The notes under the pieces are model-generated. The model searched no databases. It was not told the DNA's origin and saw nothing but the letters and a program-made list of their open reading frames with translations. A stretch of 40,354 nt of DNA, taken from assembly GCA_002699025.1 (NCBI GenBank), contig PABA01000042.1:1-40354 (forward strand), in the 5' to 3' direction. Position 1 is the stretch's first letter, and every line of letters begins with the position of its first letter. Made by a program: the position numbers and the translations under genes. Below are positions 1-25,436 of the stretch, piece after piece. The stretch is from Sandaracinus sp. (GTDB taxonomy: Bacteria; Myxococcota_A; Polyangia; Polyangiales; Houyiibacteriaceae).

Positions 1-104
1 ACGCGTCCTGCGGACACCGCCACGCGTCCTGCGGACACCGCCACGCGTCCTGCGGACACCGCCACGCGTCCTGCGGACACCACCACGCGTCCTGCGGACA
101 CCGG
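1..104. repeat. 21-bp tandem repeat array, five units, each with a small hairpin core
   Basis: Five head-to-tail copies of a 21-bp unit begin at 1, 22, 43, 64 and 85. The fourth and fifth vary only at the end. Each unit contains GTCCTGCGGAC, in which GTCC and GGAC pair around a three-base loop. The array may continue left of the window. The same 11-nt core recurs, on the other strand, in the 23-bp array at 12618-12776. No reading frame through it looks like a real protein. Confidence 0.9.
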
Positions 105-332
105 GGGGCTCTTGGGACGCGCGGTCGACGTGGGCGAGGGCTCGCCAGATGGCGGAATGCGCCACGATGACGGCTGCTTGCGCGAGAGCGGGGGTCGAGC
201 GCCCGCGGGGGAACCGGAGGTCGAGCCCCGCGAAGTTGAACTTGACGTCAAGTTCAGTTCTTCCTTCCCCCCGCCGCTCGGCCAGCGCCCTCCGGACGGA
301 GTCGCCACGGAGTCGGCTCGCGCGGGGCCAGC
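105..332. other. Non-coding stretch ahead of the Nudix gene
   Basis: With the array at 1-104 this makes about 330 bases with no credible gene. Overlapping frames here are arginine/proline-rich and continue out of frame into the Nudix gene, so they are shadows. The one structured element is the 20-bp palindrome at 237-256. No clear ribosome binding site precedes the Nudix starts. Confidence 0.6.
237..256. promoter_or_regulatory. 20-bp perfect palindrome, candidate operator upstream of the Nudix gene
   Basis: The sequence TGAACTTGACGTCAAGTTCA equals its own reverse complement over 20 bases. It is markedly AT-richer than its surroundings and sits about 77-96 bases before the first ATG of the Nudix gene. 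Perfect symmetry of this length is typical of a dimeric repressor or activator site. The CTTGAC-GTCAAG core resembles MerR-family operators. The regulator is not in the window, so the family is only a guess. Confidence 0.55.
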
Positions 333-764
333 ATGCTCGGTATGCCGAGCGCCATGACCGTGCTCGTCGCCGCTGGCGTGATCCGTCGAGACGAGGGCCC
401 CGAGGTGCTGCTGACGCGCCGCATGAAGGGGGCCCATCTGGCCGGCAAGTGGGAGTTCCCCGGAGGCAAGGTGGAGCCCGACGAGGATCCGCGGGACGCC
501 GTCGTGCGCGAGTGCCGCGAGGAGTGCGCCATCGAGGTCGAGGTGGAGGACATCCTCGACGTGACCTTCCACGCCTACCCGGAGAAGAGCGTGCTCCTGC
601 TCTTCTACGCCTGCCGGCTCCGCAGGGGCGCGGTGCGCCACCTGGGCGTCGCGGACCACGCCTGGGTGCACCCGGACGCGCTCGACGGCTACGACCTGCC
701 GCCGGCCGACGAGCCCGTGGTGGCGAAGCTCCGCGCCCGCGCGACGACCGAGCGGCACGGCTGA
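333..764 (+). CDS. Nudix (MutT-like) hydrolase
   Basis: A 143-residue single-domain Nudix protein, probably hydrolysing a nucleoside triphosphate such as an oxidised dGTP or a pyrimidine nucleotide. MutT-type proteins of this size sanitise the nucleotide pool in the cytoplasm. The Nudix box is visible from G45: G45, E51, R59-E60 and E63-E64 match GX5EX7REUXEEXGU, but the final glycine is alanine (A66). The core starts VLVAAGVI and keeps GKWEFPGGK ahead of the box, as in MutT/CTP pyrophosphohydrolases. Three in-frame ATGs (333, 342, 354) are possible and none has a strong ribosome binding site; 354 would fit family length well. The gene stands alone and converges with the lipoprotein gene on the other strand, 16 bases away. 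A palindrome lies upstream. The domain is certain; the substrate is not. Confidence 0.88.
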   Translation: MLGMPSAMTVLVAAGVIRRDEGPEVLLTRRMKGAHLAGKWEFPGGKVEPDEDPRDAVVRECREECAIEVEVEDILDVTFHAYPEKSVLLLFYACRLRRGAVRHLGVADHAWVHPDALDGYDLPPADEPVVAKLRARATTERHG

Positions 765-12617: not shown

Positions 12618-12776
12618 GGACCTCCAGACTCCCGGAGAGGCGTCCGCAGGACTCCCCGAGAGCCGTCCGCAGGGCTCCCCGAGAGGCGTCCGCAGGGCTC
12701 CCGGAGAGCCGTCCGCAGGACTACCGCTGAGGCGTCCGCAGGACTCCCGCTGAGGCGTCCGCAGGACTCAGTCGAG
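12618..12776. repeat. 23-bp tandem repeat array, about seven units, abutting a stop codon
   Basis: Units begin at 12618 (diverged), 12641, 12664, 12687, 12710, 12733 and 12756 (partial). Each carries CGTCCGCAGGAC or a one-base variant followed by a C/G-rich spacer. GTCC and GGAC pair around three bases, giving a hairpin per unit. The last unit runs into the stop codon (12768-12770) of the aminotransferase gene. The core is the reverse complement of that in the array at 1-104. Confidence 0.9.
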
Positions 12777-13757: not shown

Positions 13758-16700
13758 TCAGCCGATCTGCTCGAGGAGCGCCTTCGCCTGCGCGTGCTCC
13801 GCGTCCTCGGAGACCGCCCGGTCCAGCATCGACTTCGCCTTCCGCGCGTCGCCCTGCTGGTGCGAGATGTCACCCAGGTAGAAGTACACGTCCGCCTTGG
13901 TGATCCCCGCGCTCTCGTCGAGCTTCTGCAGGAGCAGCGCCCGGAAGGTCTTCTGCGCCCGCGCGAGGTCCCCCTGCCGGTGCGTCAGCTTCCCGAGGTC
14001 CCGCAGGATCGCCACGTTCGTGAGGTCGATCTTGAAGGCCGCGTCGTAGTGCTTCAGCGCGCCCTCCTGATCCCCCATGCCCTCGAGCGCCCGCCCGAGC
14101 CGATGGTGGTACTGCGCGAGCTCCTTGCTGCGCCGCGTGCCGAAGCTCTCGATGATCTTCTCGAGCACGGGCACGGCGTCCTGCTGGCGCCCGGCCTCGA
14201 TGTAGAGGTCGCAGAGCGGCAGCAGCACCTCGCGGTCGTCCGGCGTCAGCTCGGCCGCCCGCTCGAGGTAGCCCACCCCGGTCGCCGCGTCGCCGAGCTT
14301 CTCCATGTAGAGGTCCGCGATGCGCTTGAGGTGCGCGACCTTCGCCGCGTCCTCCTCGATGCCCGCGAGCTCCTCGTCGAGCATCTGCGCGAGCGCCGCC
14401 CACTCCTCGTGCTTCTCGTAGTGCGCCTTGAGCAGCTCGCGCGTCGCCTCCGAGGGCTGCAGCTCGTTCGCCGCCACCAGCGCCCCGGCGGCCCGCGCCG
14501 GATCCTCGAGCTTCTCTTCGGCGAGCTCGGCGATGCGGAGGCTCGTCTTCGCCGCCTCGGCCGGCTCCTGCAGGCCGCGCAGCCGCTCGAGATCCGCGGC
14601 CACGGCCGCCCACTCGCCCTGCGCCTCGTGCAGCCCGGCGAGCCGCTCCACGGCCGCCACGTCCTGCGGATCGAGCGTGAGCACCCGGTCGAGCGCCGCG
14701 CCCGCCGCCGCGAGATCCTCGCGCTGCTCCTCGTGGAGCCCGGCCAGCCGCACCAGGAAGCCCTTCTGGGTCGCCACGTCGCCGAGCGCCGCCGCGTCGT
14801 CCGCGCGCCGCTCGAGGAGCTCCGCCAGCTCGTCCCAGCTCTCCTCGGCCTCGAGCAGCCGCCCGAGCTCGTCCAGGGCCTCGCCGTTCGACGGGTCAAT
14901 CTCCAGGATCTCCCGCAGCTGGCTCATGGCCTCGTCGCGCTTGCCGAAGGCCTTCTCCATCAGCCGCGCCAGCCGCACGCGCGCCGCCACCCGCTCCTCG
15001 TCGCTCGTCGCGATCTCGAGGCGCCGATCCAGCAGCCCGCGCAGGTCGTCCCAGCGCTCCGCCTGCTCGTAGAGGGGCTCGAGCGCCCCGATGGCCTCCA
15101 GGTCCTCCGGCGCCTCCTCGAGCACGCCCTCGAGGGCGCTCGTCGCGCGCTCCGCGTCCTCGAGCGGTCCGGCGAAGACCTCGGCGAGCTGACGCCGGAG
15201 CCCCAGGCGCTCCTCCGGGTCCATCTCGACCTCGATGCGCTTCTCGAGCAGGGGCACGACCGCGTCCCAGCGCCCCTCCGACTGGCGGATGCGGCCGAGG
15301 TCCGCGAGCGCCTCCGCGTCGCTGCCGTCGATCTCGAGGATGGCCTCGTAGCACTCGCCCGCGACCCCCGGCGACTGGAGCGCCGACTCGGCGAGCCGCG
15401 CCGCCTCGCGCAGCCGATCCTTCTTCGAGAACTCGTCGAGCTCGATCTCCGCCCAGGCGCGGAGCGCCGCCACGAGGTCCGCCTCGCGCTCGGGCACGCG
15501 CAGCAGCTCCACGAGCTGCCGATGGGCCTCGCCCGCCTCCGGGTCCGCCTCGATGGCCGCCCGCAGGCGCCCCTCGGCCGCCTCTCCGTCGCCGAGCTGG
15601 TCGCGGTACCAGCGGGCCGCCCGCAGGTTCAGCTCCCGCCCGAGCTCCCGGTCGAGGTCGCCGGCCTCGGCGATCTTCTCGATCATCCCCCGGAGCGACT
15701 CCCAGGCGCCCCAGGCCGTGGCCAGGCGCTCGACCTCCTCGAGGATCATCTCGTCCCGCGGATCGATCTCGAAGGCCTTCCGCATCGACGCGAGGGCCTT
15801 GTCCGGCTGGCCGAGGTCGTTCTCCCAGAGCTGCGCCGCCTCCTGGAGCATCTGCACGCGCTCTCCGTCCGTGTCGGCGAGGTGGATGCGGATGTCGTAG
15901 AGGCCCGCGATGCGGTCCATGGCGCCGGTCTCGCGGAAGGCCGTCTCGAGCGTGTCGACCACGTCGAGCGCCAGCTCCTCGTTCTCGCCGAGGCGCTGGA
16001 GCCCGTCGAGGGCCGCGTCGTGGCCCGGGTCCCGCTCGACGACCTCCTGGTAGGCCGCGAAGGCTCCCCGGAGATCGCCGAACTGCTTCTCGCGCAGCTC
16101 CCCGAGGCGCACGAGCAGGGCCGCACGCTCGGTCGGATCGTCGGCCATGGAGATGCGCCGCTCGAGCACCTCCGAGAGGGGCGTCCAGCTCTCCGTCTTC
16201 ACGTGCAGCCGGTCGAGGGCCGCGAGCAGGTCGACGTCGTCGCCCACCTGCTCGAGCGCGCGCTGGTAGGCCTCGACGGCCCGCGCGTCGTCCTCGAGCC
16301 GCTCCTCGGCGATGCGCGCGAGGCGCACGTAGAGCCCCCGGGCCACGACGGGGTCGAGGGCCGAGCTCGCCCGGCTCGCCAGCGTGTCCGCGAGCTTGCC
16401 GTAGCCATCGGTGGCCGCCGCGAGCCGCTCGAGGTTCTCGGCGATCTCCTCGTCGCTCGGATCCTCGCCGAGGGCCCGCGCCAGCGCGTCGAAGGCGCCG
16501 CTCGCGTCTTGCAGCCCGTTCTCGCGCACCTCCGCGAGGGCGATGAGCTCCTGCTTCTTGTCGAGCGGATCGAGCGCCGCGTCGGCCTTCAGCTTCTTCA
16601 GATCCGCGAGGAGGTCCCAGCGCTCCTGGAGGTGGAGCAGGGGCTCGAGGATCTCCGCCGCCTGGGCCCGGTAGTCCTCGAGCTGGCTGATGCGCACCAG

Positions 16701-19700
16701 CGCCTCGAGCGCCGGCTCGTGCCGGTTGTCGAGCTCGAGCACCTGCTCGTAGAGCGTGATCGCCTCGAGCACGTCGTCGAGCTCGCGCTCGGTGACCTCG
16801 CCGGCCCGGTGCATGAACGCGACGCGCTCGTCGACGTTCTCCGCGAGGCCCGCCTGGAGCTTCAGGTTCTCGAGCAGCTCGGGCCAGAGCGCCTGCCGCT
16901 CGTAGAGCCGGGAGAGCGCCGCGATGGCGTCCTTCTGCCCGGACTCCACGTCGAGCACGCCGACGTAGGCGTCGATGGCGTCTTCCGGCTGCTGGAGCTG
17001 GGTCTCGTGGAGCTGGCCGAGGCGCAGGCCGATCTCGACCTTCAGCTCGGCGTCCTCCTCCACCTCGACGCGCCGCCGGAGCACGCGGGCGAGCTGCTCG
17101 TGCTCGCTATGCGCCGCGTAGAGCCGGTCGAGGGCCTCGAGGGCGACCGGATCCTGGTCGTCCTCCTGGGCCGCGCGCTCGTAGAGATCGATGGCGCCCT
17201 TCGGGTCTCCGAGGAGCTCCTCGAGCACGGAGGCCGCGCGGCGGAGCAGCTCGGCGCGCTCGGCCGGCTCGAAGCTCCGCTCGACCTTGCGGTCGATGAC
17301 CTCCACCAGGCCGCGCCAGTCGGCGACCATCGTGTGGAGCGCCTCGAGGGCGTCCAGCGCGCTGACGTCGTCCGGGTCGTTCTCGGCGAGGCGCTCGTAG
17401 GTCTCGATGGCCGCGCGCGGGTCGCCGCGCTTCTCGTCGTGGACGCGCGCCATGGTGCCGAGGAGCTGGCTCCGGCGCATGGGGTCGGTCGTCTTGGCGA
17501 GGGCCGCCTCGTAGGCGGCGACGTGCTCGTCCCAGATGTCGAGGAGGCCGGCGAGCCGGTCGAGCTCCTTCTGCGGGCCCTCGTCGAGCGGATCCGAGGC
17601 GAAGGCGCGCGCCCAGGCCTCGAAGGCGCGGGCGCCGTCCTGGCCGCGGTCCTCGTGGAGCTGCGCGATCTCGCCGAGGAGGCGCACCCGGTCGACCGGG
17701 TCGTCGGTCATCTCGACCTGCGCCTCGAGGACGGCGACGAGCTTCTTCCACTGATCCTGACCGCGGTAGATCGGGTCGAGGATCTGCGTGATGCGCAGCT
17801 TGAGCTCGTCCTTCAGGACCAGCCCCTCGAGGGTCTGGATGGAGGGCGTGTGCGTCGGGTCGGCCTGGAGCACCTCCTCGAGGAGGTCCACGGCCATCAC
17901 CTCGTCGTCGAGGCGTTCCACGTGGAGCACGGCGAGCCGATGCTTCAGGTCCGCCTCCTCGGCGCCACCCATGGAGGCGTCGATGCGGAAGCGGAGGTGA
18001 TCGGCGAGGTCGGGCCAGCGCTCGGTCTCCGTGAAGAGCCGGTCGAGGGCCTCGACGGCCGTGATGTCGTTCGGGTCGTGCTCGAGGGCCTGCCGGTAGG
18101 CGTCGATGGCGGCGTCGACCTCCGCCTCGTCCTCCTGCAGGTCGGCGACGCGGTGGAGCAGCTGCACGCGCTCCTCGTCGCTCTCGGCCACGTCGACGCG
18201 GCGGCGGTAGAGGTCGAGGAGCGACTCGGTCCAGCGCTCGGCGCGGGCCTCGGCCTCCCGGGCCGCCTCGCGGGCGGCGACGCGCGGATCCTCGGCGGGC
18301 TCCGCGGCCTCCGGCGCCTCAGCGCTCTCCTCGGCCTCGCCTTCCGGCGCCTCGGCGCTCTCCTCGGCCTCGCCTTCGGCTGCCTCCGCGCTCTCCTCGG
18401 CCTCGCCTTCCGTCGCCTCGGCGCTCTCCGCCGCGGCTTCGCCTTCGGCCGCCTCGGCCTCGCCTTCCGTCGCCTCGGCGCTCTCCTCCGCGGCTTCGCC
18501 TTCGGCCGCCTCGGCGCTCTCCTCCCCGGCCTCGCCTTCCGCCGCCTCGGCGCTCTCCTCCGCGGCTTCGCCGGGCGCGACGCCCGGATCGCTCGCCCGC
18601 GCCGCCTCGGGCACGGGCGGCGGCGCCTCCGCCTCGGCCTGCTTCGCCTCGGCGAGCGCCTTGCTCTCCGAGACCAGCGACCGATACGCCTCCTCGAGCG
18701 CCTGGAAGGCCTCCCGATCCGTCGGCTCGAACTCGATCACCCGCGACCAGAGCTCGACCGCCTTCTCGCTCTCGCCGAGCCCGGCCCGCAGCCGCCCGGC
18801 CTTCCGCGCGACCTCCGCCGTCTCCTCGTCGACGACGCCACCCTCTTCGATGGCCCCGCCGTAGATCCCGGCCAGCTCCGCCTGCGCGTCGAGCACGCGC
18901 CCGAGCCGCTCGAGGGTCTCCCAGACCTCCCGGTCGCGCACGTCCTCGCGGAAGAGCCGCCCGTACACGGCGAGCGCCCCCTCGAGGTCCTCGAGGTAGT
19001 CCTCGTGGATCTGCCCGAGCTTGGCGAGGATGGCCTTGCGCTCCTCGAGCACGTCGGTCGACGAGAGCCGCGCGTCGAGCGTGGCCGTCACCTTCGGCCA
19101 GTCCATCTGCGCCAGGAAGACCGGCTCGAGGATCTCCGCGGCGGCCCCGCGATGCTCCTCCCGCTCCTCCATGATCTTCTCGAGGAGCGCGATCGACGGC
19201 GCGTGCGTGTTGTCCACGGCGAGCGCCTCGCGGAGCTGGTCCAGCGCCGCGTACTCGTCGTTCAGATGCTCGAGGCTCACCTCGGCGATCGCGTGGCGCA
19301 CCTCCACGGCGTTGCCCACGCCCGCGTCCAGCTGCCGTTCGAGCGTCGCCGAGAGATCGGTCCAGCGCTCGGCCTTCGCGTAGAGGCGCCGGAGGGCCTC
19401 GTAGGCCGACTGCCGGTCCTCCTGCTCCATGAGCACCTGCTCGTAGGCGTCGATCGCCGCCGGCAGGTCGTCGAGCTTCTCCACGTCGAGCTCGGCGCGC
19501 CGTTCGAGCAGCGTGATCCGCTCCTCGGCCGTCTCCGCCAGCTCGGTCTTGCGCCGCAGCACGTCGCGCAGCGCCGGCCAGTCCTCGGCCTCCCCGTGCA
19601 GCTCGTCGAGCGCGTCCAGGGCGCCGCCGTGGTCCGGCCGGTTCTCGAGCACGCGCGTGTAGAGGGCCCGCGCCCGATCCCGATCCTCGAGCCGGGCCCG

Positions 19701-22700
19701 CACGACCGCCGCCGCCTCGAGCAGCGCCGCCGACTGGAGGTCCCCGTCGAGGATGTCCGGCGCGACCTCTTCGAGGAAGGCCGCGTGCTCGACGTGCTTG
19801 TCCGCCGCCGCCGCGTAGCGCGTCAGGTCGGCGAGCATGTCCTGCAGATCCGGCTCGCCGAGGCCGGCCCTCACCGCCTTCGCCGTCAGCGCGAAGGCCT
19901 GCGCCTGGTCCTCGGCGCCGACCTCGGCCACCTCCGCCGCGCGCCGCAGGGAGCGGAGCCGCTCGAGCGGGTCGTCGCTCTCGGCGACCACCTCGAGCGC
20001 CGCCACCAGATCCCCGTAGGCCTGAGCGCCCTCGTAGTGCGGCACGAGCGTGCGCGCCGCGTCGACCCGGTAGTCGGCCTCCGGGTCGGTGATGACCTCC
20101 TCGAGCGCGGTGATCGTGCCCTCGTGCCCCGGGAGCACCTCGAGCACCTCGGCGTAGGTCTCGATGGCGCGCTCCACGTCGCCGGTCTTCGTGCGCATGA
20201 GCTGCGCCCGCCGGAAGCGGAGCTCGGCCGCGGCCTCGCCCTCCGCCTGCTCCTCCTGCATCTCGAGGATCTCGAGCAGGTCGTCCCAGCGCTCGCCGCG
20301 CTCGTAGAGGCGCGCCAGCGCGACCAGGGTCTCCGCGTGGGGCCCAAAGCGCGAGAGCGCGTCGTTGTAGGCGACGATGGCGTTGTCGAGGTCCTCGAGC
20401 TTCGTCTCGTAGACCTCGCCGATGCGCTGTACCACGACCTCCTGCTCGGTCGCGTCGTCGATGCTCGCCTCGCGGCTCTGGAGCACGCCGATGAGCTTCT
20501 GCCACTCGCCCTTCTGCTCGTAGAGCCGCTCGAGCGAGCGCATCGCGCTCACGTCCGCCGGGTCCACGTCGAGGCGCTGGCGGTGCGCCGCGATGGCCCC
20601 GTCCGTGTCCTCGAGCACCTCCTCGAGGAGCGTCGCCAGGCGGAGGAGCAGCTCGCCGCGCTTCTCCTGGTCGAACTCGAGCTTGATCTGCAGACGCAGG
20701 TCCCCCGCGAGCTTCTCGTGCTCGTCGCGCCCCATGTGGATGCGCTCGAGGGCGCGGGCCGCCGGCAGCACGCTGTCCGGGTTGTCGCCGTCGACCTCGA
20801 TGAGCTTCGCGTAGGTGCGCTCGGCCGCGTCGAGGTCGCCGAGCTGGTCGTCGTAGAGGCGCGCGAGCTCGAGGAGGAGCTCGGCGTGGAGGAAGGTCGA
20901 GTCCGCCGACTGCTCGGCGGCCTTCTCGAGCACGGCGGCGCGCTCGGCGTCGGCGCCCCGGAGCCCGGCCACGCGGGCGAGCTCCTGGCGGACGGACGCG
21001 TCCTGCGGATCGGCGAGCACGGCCTTCGAGAGGGCGCCCATGGCCTTCTCGGCGTCGCCGAGCTTGTCCTCCTGGAGCGAGGCGATGCGCGTCAGGAGCG
21101 CGAGCTGCCCGCCCGGATCGGAGACGTCCTCGAGCTGCACCTCGAGGATGCGCGCGAGCTCGCCCCAGGCGCCCTGGGCGTCGTAGAGCGGCTCGAGGGT
21201 CGCGGCGATGCGCTGGCGCTGGCTCGGCTCGCCGAGGAGCCGCTCGAGGGCCTGCTGCGCCTTCACGTGCGTCGGCGCCTTCTCGAGGACCTGCTCGTAC
21301 TGGTCGACGGCCATGGTCGGCTCGCCGAGGCGCTGCTCGTGGAGCTCGCCGATCTCGTAGAGGAGGTCGATCTTGCCGCGCTCGTCCTCCTCCCGGTCGA
21401 GCTCCTGGCGGAGCAGGGCGACGAGATCGCGCCAGCGCTCCGTGCGCCGATAGAGCCGGTCGAGGGCGCGCCGCGTGCTGTAGTGCTCGGGCTCGAGCTC
21501 GAGGACCTCCTGGTAGGAGCGGATGGCCAGCTCCGGGTCCTCGAGGATCTCCTCGAAGAGGAAGCAGACCTGGAGCAGGAGCTCGAGCTTCTGCTCGCCG
21601 TCGACGGTCTCCGCGATGCGGTTGCGGTAGAGCGCCTGGAGCTCGTCCCAGCGCTCCTGCGTCGTGTAGAGCTCCTTCAGCGCGAGGAAGGCCCGCTCGT
21701 GGAGCGGGTCATCCAGGAGGACCTTCTTGTGGAAGGGCTCGGCCTTGGCGGGCTCGCCGAGGATGACGTCGTAGATCTCCGCGACGCGCGAGGCGAGCGC
21801 GGCCCGGTCCCCGTCGGGCAGCTCGCCGGCCTCGATGGCGGTCGCGAAGGCCGTGGCGAGCGCCTCGTGCTTGCCGGCGGCCTCCGCCGCGTTGGCGAGC
21901 CGATCCCAGAGGTCCACGTCCGAGGGGCGATCGAGGAACGCCGCCTCGAGCGCCGCGTAGGCGCCGTCGGCGTCGCCGAGGGAGGTGGCCGCGAGCTCGG
22001 CGAGGCGCAGGCGGAGCTCGCGCGTCTCTTCCTCGTCTTCGGTGGCCTCGAGGCGGAGGCGCAGCACGCCCGCGAGCTTCTCCGGCTCGGCCGAGTTCTC
22101 GTAGGCGCGCTCGAGGAGCGGCGCGGCGAGGAGCTTCAGCGCGTCCTTCTCGGCGAGGGCCTCGACGCCGGCCACGGCCTCGGGGTGCGAGGGCCGGGCG
22201 TCCATGACCTCGGCGTAGTGGTCGAGGGCGCCGCGGTCGTCCCCGAGCTTCTCGCGCTCGAGGGTGGCGAGCCGGAGCGTGAGCCCGATCCGGTCCGCGT
22301 CGTCCAGCTCGCGTCGGCGCTTCAGCACCTCCGCCAGCTCCTCCCAGCGCTCGCCCTGCGTGAGCAGCCGGTCGAGGGCCTCGAGGGCCTCCGGATCCGT
22401 CGGCTCGATCTCGAGGATCGTCCGGTAGCGCGCGGCCGCGCCCTCGGCGTCGTCGAGCACGTCCTCCTCGAGCTGGGCGAGCTCGCGGAGGATCGCGAGG
22501 CGCTCGTCGGCGTCGTCGACGTGCTGGAGCCGGTGGACCTTCAGCTTGCGCAGGTCGCGCGTGCGCCCCTCGCTCCGGTAGAGCCGGTCGAGCACGGCCA
22601 CCACGTCCGCGTCGCGCGGCTCGGCCTCGAGGATCTGCTCGAGCTGGGCGATGGCCTCACCGGTCTCGCCGAGCTTCTCCCCCTGGATCTCCGCGAGCTT

Positions 22701-25436
22701 CCGCCGGAGCGCCAGCGACTCCTCGTCGCCGACGTCCTCGTCCGTGAGCCGGTTGCCGAGCGCGTCGACGAAGGGCTCCCAGGCCCCGGCCCGCGCCGCC
22801 GCCTCCTCGAAGCGCGCGCGCACCCCCGCGTCGTCTGGCGTCAGCTCGAAGGCCTTCTTCGCCCAGCGGAAGGAGGCCTGCTCGTCCCCGAGCCGCTCGT
22901 GGGCGAGCTCGGCGAGCTCCTCGATGGCCGCCAGGCGCTCCTCCACGGGCGCGTCCGCGGGCACGTTGCCGAGGAGGATCTCCTTCATCTCGACCAGGCG
23001 CCGCCACTTGTCCTGCGCCTCGTAGATCGGGATCAGCGCCCGCGCCGCCCGTTCGTTCGTCGGCTCGACGGCGAGCACGCGCTCGTAGCTGCGGAAGGCA
23101 CGCTCCGGGTTGCCGAGCTGCTCCGTGTAGATGGCCGCCGCGCGGAAGCTGAGCTCCTTCTTGTCCTCGACGTCGTCGGTCCGGTCCGCCGCCGTGCCGA
23201 GCACGTCGACGAGCCCCTCCCAGTCCTCCGCCTCGGCGTAGAGGGCGTGCAGCCCCTCCCAGTCCTTGCCCTTGATGAAGGTCTCGCGGAGCGTGCGCAG
23301 GGCGCGCCCGTTCTTCGGGTCGATCTCGAGGATGCGCTTCCAGGCGTCGGCCGCGCGGCTCGGGTCGTCGAGGTGCTCGCCGTAGACGTTGCCGAGCTTC
23401 TGGAGGATCTTGATGCGCTTCTTCTCGTCCTCCTCGGCGCCGAGCTTGCGCTCGAGGGCGAAGGCGAGCGTCTCCCAGTCCTTCTCGCGCTCGGAGAGCT
23501 TCTCGAGGGTCTGCAGCGCGCCCTCGGTCTCCGGCGCCTCCTCGAGGATGCCGCGCCAGAGCACGATCGCCTCGTCGTTGCGGTGCAGCCGGTCGCCCGC
23601 GAGCTTGGCCATCTCGATGCGCATCTCGAGGCGCGCCGTCGGATCGCTCGCGAGCGCGCTCTCCTTCTCGAGCACGGCGTAGAGCGGCTTCCAGGCGCGC
23701 TTCTTCGTGTAGATGGTCTTGAGCTGACCGAGCGCCTCGCGGTTCTCGGGCTCGATCTCGACGACCTTCTCGAGCGGCTCCGTCGCCTTGTTGTAGTTGG
23801 CGAAGCGGTCGATCCAGAGCCGCGCGACGCGGCCGTGCAGGGCGACCTTCTCGGCGTCGCTCTCGGCCGCCTCGGCCTGCTGCTCGAGCACCTGGATGAG
23901 GTCGTTCCAGCGCCCCATCTGCTCGTAGGTGGCGGCGAGCTGGGAGAGGGCCTCCTGATCGCCGGGCTCCTCCTCAAGGAGCGCGTTGTAGGTGTTGATC
24001 ACCATCACGTCGAGCTTCAGCTCGTCGCGGTAGATGGCGATCAGCTCGCGGAGGAGCGCGACGCGGCGCGCCTTCACGTCGGCGTCGTCGCTCTGGGCCT
24101 CGAGGGCGTCGAGCTCGGCGCGCATGACCTCGACCAGCGCGTTCCACTTCTGACCCGCGCGGTAGAGCTCGCGCAGCGCGTCGCCGGCGTCGGCGTGGGT
24201 CGGGTCGAGGCGCTGCACCGCCTTCCAGGCGTCGATGGCCCGGTCCGTGGCGCCGGCCTCCTGGGCCGCCCGGGCGAGCTCGATGGCGAGCGCGAGCTTG
24301 CGCTCCTCCGTGTCCGCCGAGCGCTGCGCGTCGGAGAGGATCGTGAGCAGGCGCTGCTTGGCCTCGTCGGCCGTGGCCGGGTCCTCGCTCTGGGCCTTCG
24401 CGCCGAGGTAGTCCCGGTAGAACTCGATCATCGCCGGTTGGGACGGCGCGATCTTGCGGAGGCGCGCGAAGTGCGGCTCGGCCTCGTCGGGGGCGCCGCG
24501 CATGCGCCAGTGCACCATGCCGATCTGCAGGAGCACGCCCTGCTCGCTCTCGAGCTTCTGCCGGGAGCGGAGCGCGTCCTCGTAGAGCGCGACGAGGTGA
24601 TCCCACTCCTCGCGGGCGGTGTAGTGCTCGACCAGGTAGCGGAGCGCCTCCTCGTGGCCGGGCACGAAGTCGAGCACGCGCGCGAAGCACTCGCCGGCGA
24701 GCGCCGAGTCCTCGAGGTGGCGCACGGCCGTCCGCCCGGCCTCGACGTAGAGGTTCACCTTCTCGTCGCGGTTGCGGGCGGCGTCGGCGGTGCTCTTCAA
24801 GACCTCGGCGACGTCCTTCCAGCGCTTCCGCGACTTGAGCGTCACGCAGTAGAGCCGCGCCGCGCGCGTGTTCGCCGGGTCGGCCTTGAGGGCCCAGCGG
24901 AAGAGCTTGTCGACCTCCTTGGCGCGGCCCTTCTTGCGGTGCTGCCAGACCAGGCTCGCGGCGCGCGCGAACATCGACGCCTTGAGGCTCGCGTCGCTCG
25001 CGTCCTTGGCCTCCTCGATGAAGCGATCGGCGATCGGGCGCCACTTCTCGGCGGCCTGCTCGATCTCTTCGATGGCCACCTCGACGTCCTCGTCGCCGGC
25101 CTTCACCTCGAGGGCACGCCGGAAGGCTTCGAGGGCGCCGGCGTCGTCGAGGAGCTCCTCGCGACGCAGGCGGCCGAGCTCCTTCAGGAGCGTCGCCTGG
25201 AAGCCCGGGTCGTCGGCGCTGAGCTCCACCTCGAGCTCGATGAGCCAGGCGACCGCCCGGGCCTCACCGCGCTTCTCGTGCGTGGCCCGCGCCGCCTCCA
25301 GGAGGCGGAGAGGCTGTTCGCCGACCCGCTCGGGATCGCCGCTCGCGAGCGCCTCCCGGAGCCCCTCGAAGGATTCGGCGTCCTCCGGGTCGTCTTGAAG
25401 ATTGCCCAGGTAGTTCGAGACCGTCAGCGACGCCAT
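13758..25436 (-). CDS. Giant tetratricopeptide-repeat protein, 3,892 residues
   Basis: A single unbroken 11.7-kb gene. The ATG at 25436 is preceded by GGAGG eleven bases away; the open frame further upstream is Arg/Pro-rich and lacks repeat character, so I exclude it. No signal peptide or transmembrane segment is visible, so it is probably cytoplasmic. Nearly the whole length is TPR-like helix pairs in a super-unit of roughly 70-75 residues. A typical one reads ERWDEL..VLERR..., then LGD...AI..Y..VLEIDP, then EALEALDRLY. By length this allows about 50 super-units. Around residues 2270-2400 they are interrupted by a low-complexity AEGEAEESAEA linker. The protein is strongly acidic. TPR arrays bind other proteins, so a scaffold is the natural inference; the partner is unknown. 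A weak hairpin (13741-13756) follows the stop. No catalytic domain was found. Confidence 0.93.
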   Translation of the reverse strand: MASLTVSNYLGNLQDDPEDAESFEGLREALASGDPERVGEQPLRLLEAARATHEKRGEARAVAWLIELEVELSADDPGFQATLLKELGRLRREELLDDAGALEAFRRALEVKAGDEDVEVAIEEIEQAAEKWRPIADRFIEEAKDASDASLKASMFARAASLVWQHRKKGRAKEVDKLFRWALKADPANTRAARLYCVTLKSRKRWKDVAEVLKSTADAARNRDEKVNLYVEAGRTAVRHLEDSALAGECFARVLDFVPGHEEALRYLVEHYTAREEWDHLVALYEDALRSRQKLESEQGVLLQIGMVHWRMRGAPDEAEPHFARLRKIAPSQPAMIEFYRDYLGAKAQSEDPATADEAKQRLLTILSDAQRSADTEERKLALAIELARAAQEAGATDRAIDAWKAVQRLDPTHADAGDALRELYRAGQKWNALVEVMRAELDALEAQSDDADVKARRVALLRELIAIYRDELKLDVMVINTYNALLEEEPGDQEALSQLAATYEQMGRWNDLIQVLEQQAEAAESDAEKVALHGRVARLWIDRFANYNKATEPLEKVVEIEPENREALGQLKTIYTKKRAWKPLYAVLEKESALASDPTARLEMRIEMAKLAGDRLHRNDEAIVLWRGILEEAPETEGALQTLEKLSEREKDWETLAFALERKLGAEEDEKKRIKILQKLGNVYGEHLDDPSRAADAWKRILEIDPKNGRALRTLRETFIKGKDWEGLHALYAEAEDWEGLVDVLGTAADRTDDVEDKKELSFRAAAIYTEQLGNPERAFRSYERVLAVEPTNERAARALIPIYEAQDKWRRLVEMKEILLGNVPADAPVEERLAAIEELAELAHERLGDEQASFRWAKKAFELTPDDAGVRARFEEAAARAGAWEPFVDALGNRLTDEDVGDEESLALRRKLAEIQGEKLGETGEAIAQLEQILEAEPRDADVVAVLDRLYRSEGRTRDLRKLKVHRLQHVDDADERLAILRELAQLEEDVLDDAEGAAARYRTILEIEPTDPEALEALDRLLTQGERWEELAEVLKRRRELDDADRIGLTLRLATLEREKLGDDRGALDHYAEVMDARPSHPEAVAGVEALAEKDALKLLAAPLLERAYENSAEPEKLAGVLRLRLEATEDEEETRELRLRLAELAATSLGDADGAYAALEAAFLDRPSDVDLWDRLANAAEAAGKHEALATAFATAIEAGELPDGDRAALASRVAEIYDVILGEPAKAEPFHKKVLLDDPLHERAFLALKELYTTQERWDELQALYRNRIAETVDGEQKLELLLQVCFLFEEILEDPELAIRSYQEVLELEPEHYSTRRALDRLYRRTERWRDLVALLRQELDREEDERGKIDLLYEIGELHEQRLGEPTMAVDQYEQVLEKAPTHVKAQQALERLLGEPSQRQRIAATLEPLYDAQGAWGELARILEVQLEDVSDPGGQLALLTRIASLQEDKLGDAEKAMGALSKAVLADPQDASVRQELARVAGLRGADAERAAVLEKAAEQSADSTFLHAELLLELARLYDDQLGDLDAAERTYAKLIEVDGDNPDSVLPAARALERIHMGRDEHEKLAGDLRLQIKLEFDQEKRGELLLRLATLLEEVLEDTDGAIAAHRQRLDVDPADVSAMRSLERLYEQKGEWQKLIGVLQSREASIDDATEQEVVVQRIGEVYETKLEDLDNAIVAYNDALSRFGPHAETLVALARLYERGERWDDLLEILEMQEEQAEGEAAAELRFRRAQLMRTKTGDVERAIETYAEVLEVLPGHEGTITALEEVITDPEADYRVDAARTLVPHYEGAQAYGDLVAALEVVAESDDPLERLRSLRRAAEVAEVGAEDQAQAFALTAKAVRAGLGEPDLQDMLADLTRYAAAADKHVEHAAFLEEVAPDILDGDLQSAALLEAAAVVRARLEDRDRARALYTRVLENRPDHGGALDALDELHGEAEDWPALRDVLRRKTELAETAEERITLLERRAELDVEKLDDLPAAIDAYEQVLMEQEDRQSAYEALRRLYAKAERWTDLSATLERQLDAGVGNAVEVRHAIAEVSLEHLNDEYAALDQLREALAVDNTHAPSIALLEKIMEEREEHRGAAAEILEPVFLAQMDWPKVTATLDARLSSTDVLEERKAILAKLGQIHEDYLEDLEGALAVYGRLFREDVRDREVWETLERLGRVLDAQAELAGIYGGAIEEGGVVDEETAEVARKAGRLRAGLGESEKAVELWSRVIEFEPTDREAFQALEEAYRSLVSESKALAEAKQAEAEAPPPVPEAARASDPGVAPGEAAEESAEAAEGEAGEESAEAAEGEAAEESAEATEGEAEAAEGEAAAESAEATEGEAEESAEAAEGEAEESAEAPEGEAEESAEAPEAAEPAEDPRVAAREAAREAEARAERWTESLLDLYRRRVDVAESDEERVQLLHRVADLQEDEAEVDAAIDAYRQALEHDPNDITAVEALDRLFTETERWPDLADHLRFRIDASMGGAEEADLKHRLAVLHVERLDDEVMAVDLLEEVLQADPTHTPSIQTLEGLVLKDELKLRITQILDPIYRGQDQWKKLVAVLEAQVEMTDDPVDRVRLLGEIAQLHEDRGQDGARAFEAWARAFASDPLDEGPQKELDRLAGLLDIWDEHVAAYEAALAKTTDPMRRSQLLGTMARVHDEKRGDPRAAIETYERLAENDPDDVSALDALEALHTMVADWRGLVEVIDRKVERSFEPAERAELLRRAASVLEELLGDPKGAIDLYERAAQEDDQDPVALEALDRLYAAHSEHEQLARVLRRRVEVEEDAELKVEIGLRLGQLHETQLQQPEDAIDAYVGVLDVESGQKDAIAALSRLYERQALWPELLENLKLQAGLAENVDERVAFMHRAGEVTERELDDVLEAITLYEQVLELDNRHEPALEALVRISQLEDYRAQAAEILEPLLHLQERWDLLADLKKLKADAALDPLDKKQELIALAEVRENGLQDASGAFDALARALGEDPSDEEIAENLERLAAATDGYGKLADTLASRASSALDPVVARGLYVRLARIAEERLEDDARAVEAYQRALEQVGDDVDLLAALDRLHVKTESWTPLSEVLERRISMADDPTERAALLVRLGELREKQFGDLRGAFAAYQEVVERDPGHDAALDGLQRLGENEELALDVVDTLETAFRETGAMDRIAGLYDIRIHLADTDGERVQMLQEAAQLWENDLGQPDKALASMRKAFEIDPRDEMILEEVERLATAWGAWESLRGMIEKIAEAGDLDRELGRELNLRAARWYRDQLGDGEAAEGRLRAAIEADPEAGEAHRQLVELLRVPEREADLVAALRAWAEIELDEFSKKDRLREAARLAESALQSPGVAGECYEAILEIDGSDAEALADLGRIRQSEGRWDAVVPLLEKRIEVEMDPEERLGLRRQLAEVFAGPLEDAERATSALEGVLEEAPEDLEAIGALEPLYEQAERWDDLRGLLDRRLEIATSDEERVAARVRLARLMEKAFGKRDEAMSQLREILEIDPSNGEALDELGRLLEAEESWDELAELLERRADDAAALGDVATQKGFLVRLAGLHEEQREDLAAAGAALDRVLTLDPQDVAAVERLAGLHEAQGEWAAVAADLERLRGLQEPAEAAKTSLRIAELAEEKLEDPARAAGALVAANELQPSEATRELLKAHYEKHEEWAALAQMLDEELAGIEEDAAKVAHLKRIADLYMEKLGDAATGVGYLERAAELTPDDREVLLPLCDLYIEAGRQQDAVPVLEKIIESFGTRRSKELAQYHHRLGRALEGMGDQEGALKHYDAAFKIDLTNVAILRDLGKLTHRQGDLARAQKTFRALLLQKLDESAGITKADVYFYLGDISHQQGDARKAKSMLDRAVSEDAEHAQAKALLEQIG
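18300..18600 (-). repeat. Degenerate ~33-bp repeats encoding the acidic linker of the TPR protein
   Basis: Roughly eight imperfect units encode AEGEAEESAEA/ATEGEAAEESAEA segments of the giant protein. At DNA level this is the only part of the gene with near-identical tandem repeats; elsewhere repetition is visible only in the protein. The linker would be disordered and strongly negative. Confidence 0.8.

Follow-up and report, generated by a model that had tools for sequence, protein, structure and literature searches.

Autoregulatory operators of the TetR family are dyads of about 18–20 bp located just upstream of tetR. REP/BIME repeats, which hold sites for IHF or gyrase, and Correia elements are dispersed intergenic repeats that carry protein-binding sites. 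For SlmA, which is structurally related to TetR, a 12-bp palindrome is reported 50 times in E. coli K-12; the sites are described as lying mainly in coding regions, and SlmA is said there to have no obvious part in gene expression (PMC3116907). RefZ is described as a TetR-family protein that acts via chromosomal RBM motifs (PMC6657595).

The 20-bp palindrome considered here lies near one end of the window, which is the whole of contig G000:C53 (40,354 nucleotides) from a genome of 9.24 Mb in 238 contigs. It probably serves as operator for a TetR-family repressor whose gene lies elsewhere in the genome, and the copy in the window closes a dispersed module on the right. Like autoregulatory TetR operators, it forms a perfect dyad just upstream of tetR and is kept there among orthologs; unlike them, it has about 31 extra copies, which belong to a repeated module and are often placed away from promoters. 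A TetR-like protein and a stringent palindrome present tens of times per chromosome recall SlmA as it has been described, although the sites here are all intergenic and accompanied by an array and usually by a second box, and the protein is not SlmA by profile. RefZ, as described, is likewise a TetR-family protein with chromosomal motifs, but the TetR of this genome scores far under the cut-off of the RefZ profile. As in REP/BIME and Correia elements, the modules are intergenic and dispersed and contain a putative protein-binding site; unlike them, they come without a REP-type transposase, would be bound by a specific TetR and include additional 21-bp arrays.

The palindrome and its tetR gene

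Examination of the sequence agrees with the first-pass annotation that the palindrome is fully symmetric and low in GC (40%, against 73% for the window), and the window contains a single match to it at up to three mismatches. The accompanying statement that such symmetry is very unlikely to arise by chance was too strong: from composition, about 0.28 perfect palindromes of at least 20 bp are expected per window (40 block shuffles of the window gave a mean of 0.275 and a maximum of 2), and a further 691 kb of the same genome hold nine. A chance origin is excluded not by the symmetry but by the recurrence of the 18-bp core, which has 11 exact copies genome-wide and is found at 32 places with up to three mismatches (2 for the reversed control), a limit that more diverged copies would escape. 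Eight of the 32 copies are at most about 320 bases away from a contig end, which is where they would fall if tandem arrays interrupt assembly. A blastn search with positions 1–330 of the window for a phage or plasmid origin gave no match, and the sequences were not found in the published literature, either by literal strings or by topic.

A search of the genome for the site and for a neighbouring regulator gene had been proposed; one of the 32 places adjoins a TetR gene. Its product matches TetR_N (PF00440, 51.9 bits) and TetR_C_15 (PF17918, 39.1 bits), both above cut-off, and its ATG follows the end of the operator core by 21 nt (locus L051). Nineteen TetR homologs were matched in the 144 genomes of the order that were searched. 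The operator is present just upstream of tetR, with 0–2 mismatches, in 11 of the 12 orthologs (E < 1e-36, own gene included), the sole one lacking it being L136, and it is found upstream of none of the seven weaker homologs in the order. The exact 18-mer occurs at 23 loci of named genomes; a motif search located a TetR helix-turn-helix motif 173–244 nt after it at 12 of these, a thirteenth tetR-linked case (L075, where the gene is cut by the locus end) was recognized by eye, and no TetR motif was seen at the other ten. The same operator precedes a related tetR in marine Gammaproteobacteria, and the recognition region VATGSFYQYF is common to the TetRs of Myxococcota and Gammaproteobacteria. At L067 and L084, both from marine Gammaproteobacteria, the operator is located between divergent tetR-amidohydrolase and alpha/beta-hydrolase genes.

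A perfect dyad that TetR orthologs keep upstream, the palindrome behaves as the dimeric-regulator site it was first taken for. As to the class of regulator, MerR-type and TetR-type genes had both been named as possible neighbours, and the TetR option stands, tetR being the conserved neighbour. An operator of the MerR type controlling the Nudix gene would be in keeping with the CTTGAC half-site and the position upstream of mutT; this reading is disfavoured because the conserved neighbour gene is tetR, no conserved merR being present, and the site is not specific to mutT, occurring at 32 places genome-wide. We regard it as very improbable. The identity of the putative operator, assigned by TetR orthology, is well supported at the sequence level. 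A TetR dimer would bind the palindrome, and at the tetR gene itself such binding would lead to autorepression. A scan for sigma-70-like promoters, restricted to spacers of 16–18 nt, found none.

Among 16 chosen genomes compared at up to two mismatches, ten relatives have exactly one copy of the operator and five have none; this genome has 29. At up to one mismatch, in 317 genomes of the class, 12 of the 316 others have a single copy and this one has 24. Four single-copy genomes were newly met in this comparison: in two the copy is at tetR by motif, in L174 by reading of the frame, and in L175 no tetR was found beside it. The operator expansion is specific to this genome. The refuting condition put forward in the first-pass annotation speaks, indirectly, against the proposed link to the Nudix gene: in the relatives that have the operator, the sole copy is nearly always at tetR, and thus none would also be present upstream of their Nudix gene at that stringency.

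Structure and conservation of the repeated module

In the window, the palindrome terminates a repeated module, a point absent from the first-pass annotation (Table 1). From left to right, the module consists of tandem repeats of about 21 bp with the core GTCCTGCGGAC, a conserved 37-bp box with the consensus A.GGCGGAAT.CG.CATGATGACGG..GCTTGCGTG. and the operator at the right end; this structure is well supported. A GTCCTGCGGAC-like core lies 24–167 nt from the operator in every one of the 32 copies, and in L020 there are cores on both sides. The box, for which we coin the name M-box, scores well in 27 of the 32 modules and is degenerate in the remaining five (L013, L020, L029:4009, L031 and the tetR locus L051). 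At L026:670-1260 and L028:4187-4700, box and operator are tandemly duplicated, indicating local amplification of the module.

Table 1. Features of the window and position of the tetR gene.
Feature	Position	Strand	Remarks
Tandem array, 4.9 copies of a 21-bp unit, core GTCCTGCGGAC	1..103	+	Tandem Repeats Finder; truncated at base 1, where the contig ends
M-box, 37 bp	149..185	+	Profile match score 30.4
Palindrome TGAACTTGACGTCAAGTTCA	237..256	.	Putative TetR operator; 18-bp core 238-255
mutT-like Nudix gene (8-oxo-dGTP diphosphatase family)	333..764	+	TIGR00586 104.3 bits (cut-off 97.9); NUDIX PF00293
Second GTCCTGCGGAC array	12642..12767	-	Core positions; directly after stop codon, without palindrome
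tetR, 212 aa	G000:C60:13950-14585; L051:4951-5589		Just behind fatty-acid desaturase gene

Conservation is concentrated in the blocks, with a mean pairwise identity of 91% for the operator and 66% for the M-box, and of 35% on the left (18 nt) and 32% on the right. The value for the operator is raised by the three-mismatch limit, so an independent test was run with the M-box pattern alone; genome-wide, at up to three mismatches, it was found at 16 places (control, 0), all 16 of them in operator-bearing modules. Mismatches within the operator cluster at half-site positions 5/6, which take 26 of the 32 in the 31 dispersed copies, 9 of the 10 in the operators of ten relatives and, over 15 distinct operator forms, 19 of 25 (P = 0.0003), although many are shared variants and not independent events, and the shared ancestry of the copies weakens these positional statistics. 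The pattern is what a single TetR specificity would leave.

About a third of the module pairs show a relatedness beyond the conserved blocks that exceeds the 99th percentile of shuffles, so the modules also share descent. Such relatedness would suit a selfish or neutral interspersed repeat, in which a mobile, non-autonomous module has captured the tetR operator and the sites merely titrate TetR. This is the main rival reading, and it would also fit the confinement of the arrays to one of 144 genomes in the order, the presence in L026 and L028 of entire modules duplicated in tandem, and the neighbours without a functional theme. It sits less easily with the conservation of operator and M-box next to a nearly random spacer, with the presence of the operator at 16 of 16 M-boxes and with the orientation of the module, which is tied to the upstream gene; moreover, a search for a REP-type Y1 transposase (PF01797) gave 0 matches in this genome, which is 95.9% complete. 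We consider a selfish repeat possible, if on balance doubtful.

Two further features of the module were considered and set aside. Covariation suggestive of a hairpin in the M-box, seen in a pair test of 27 boxes, was explained by two subfamilies. The spacings between M-box and operator (about 42, 47 and 52), analysed after each tandem pair (L026 and L028) had been reduced to a single copy, gave a helical-phasing signal that was significant for a period of 10.5 bp and for periods of 9 and 12 bp as well, and are therefore taken as mere length classes.

Beyond the core, arm positions 7–18 are more complementary within copies (0.417) than between copies (0.318), and 0 of 1000 shuffles reached as high a value. 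The effect is driven by a minority of copies with long arms (17 bp in L017, 16 bp in L027 and L033), which differ in sequence and keep their complementarity; L017 and L033 also fold strongly, with z-scores of −8.8 and −7.9. The palindrome might accordingly act as RNA or single strand, as a hairpin at the 3' end of the upstream transcript serving as terminator or processing signal, and the location of the arrays after gene ends would agree with this. Yet 22 of the 32 copies extend the symmetry by 5 bp or less, the z-score of the window copy is only −1.8, positions 1–900 of the window contain no T-tract (intrinsic) terminator, no known RNA family in Rfam was matched, and the 18-bp tip is identical to the operator found at tetR in another phylum, making a role as hairpin quite unlikely. 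TetR binding, for its part, leaves the long arms unexplained and does not need them. Template-switch correction of imperfect palindromes could yield matching arms, and a structural role could also account for them. Outside this genome, several gammaproteobacterial tetR operators have perfect arms of 15–19 bp beyond the core, differing between species, and in L066-L069, L075, L081, L082 and L084 the operator is contained in long palindromes of up to about 56 bp.

The wider array family

Exact GTCCTGCGGAC cores number 328 + 290 genome-wide, against 17 + 22 for the control. No comparable excess of the core was found in 32 other genomes of the family, and of the 144 genomes of the order only this one has the tandem-pair pattern. 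Two viral contigs that matched the pattern are without the operator and look unrelated. In a 731-kb sample, non-random in that long or array-bearing contigs were picked (opening stretches of at most 20 kb from C70-C88 without C78, 120 kb from the start of each of C5, C8 and C193, and the window), 22 of 23 core clusters are intergenic, usually a few tens of bases after a stop codon. No palindrome follows 25 of the 29 arrays inspected for downstream sequence, and the stems behind these 25 are similar in length to those of 536 control windows.

The operator-less arrays (for instance, L036-L050) have a spacing of 21–23 bp and array-specific spacers, and most lie right after stop codons. In L041, L046, L099 and L100, the array is followed by another repeated block, which contains a large inverted repeat and an M-box-like box, with GGCGGAAAAAGCCTGTGATTTCGTG present in two of the four; after the block, members of a paralogous family of basic proteins appear to begin. 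We regard this block as a second partner module of the arrays. On the 3' side of the array in L047, a low-GC stretch contains two copies of a different palindrome, ACTGACACGTCAGT, which looks like the site of another regulator. The window also includes a predicted open reading frame of 3892 aa with strong codon bias (13758-25436, minus strand).

Placement of the modules and their possible roles

All 32 operator copies are intergenic, with none inside genes predicted by a simple in-house codon-usage script. On the array side a gene was found in 26 cases, and in 22 of these it reads towards the array; with each tandem pair taken as one case, the figures are 20 of 24 (P = 0.0004). On the operator side, gene orientation shows no bias (16:14). 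As the bias is restricted to the array side, the module is tied to the 3' end of the preceding gene and not to the following gene; in 14 of 30 cases the gene to the right is directed towards the site, which there cannot be the promoter operator of that gene. For the copy in the window, the preceding gene falls outside the contig and the following one is mutT. The palindrome is separated from the ATG at 333 by 76 bases, or by 97 bases from a start at 354, which is the more likely start because TIGR00586 aligns from residue 11. A scan of 10 of the 28 distinct right-hand genes and 10 of the 24 distinct left-hand genes revealed no common function.

Since the modules are biased towards gene 3' ends, we tentatively favour, as the most likely role of the dispersed copies, that TetR bound there would block transcription running out of the upstream gene. 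The module, with its GTCCTGCGGAC array, M-box and putative operator, would act in this way at the 31 copies besides that of tetR, which usually follow the 3' end of a gene. If the next gene is directed away from the module, as mutT is here, the block would also cut read-through into that gene.

The boldest reading is a chromosome-marking role, in which the TetR and its dispersed sites would serve nucleoid organisation or the control of division, like SlmA or RefZ. That a single TetR has about 30 dispersed palindromes, roughly half of which adjoin genes unfit as promoter targets, is consistent with this, and SlmA (PMC3116907) and RefZ (PMC6657595), as described, offer precedents. Several observations argue against it: all 32 sites are intergenic, whereas those of SlmA are reported mainly in coding regions (PMC3116907); the orientation of the modules is unrelated to GC skew (17 of 32 positive); and the orthologs keep one site, at tetR. 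In addition, SlmA is not among the NCBIfam matches of this TetR at E ≤ 1e-4, and the RefZ profile gives 29.5 bits, against a cut-off of 180. A system of the SlmA or RefZ kind is therefore unlikely. It is also conceivable, though we think it somewhat improbable, that within a single lineage a local TetR has turned into a genome-wide DNA-marking factor, its operator having been incorporated into the three-part module at roughly 30 places, mostly 3' ends of genes, to serve chromosome organisation or controlled read-through and no conventional regulon.

Relatives that have this tetR keep a single operator, and so offer a before-and-after view of the multiplication of a binding site. If the dispersed sites are bound, they would represent either a natural rewiring of regulation or the recruitment of a repressor as a chromosome marker; if they are unbound, the genome would provide a clear case of a repeat capturing an operator.
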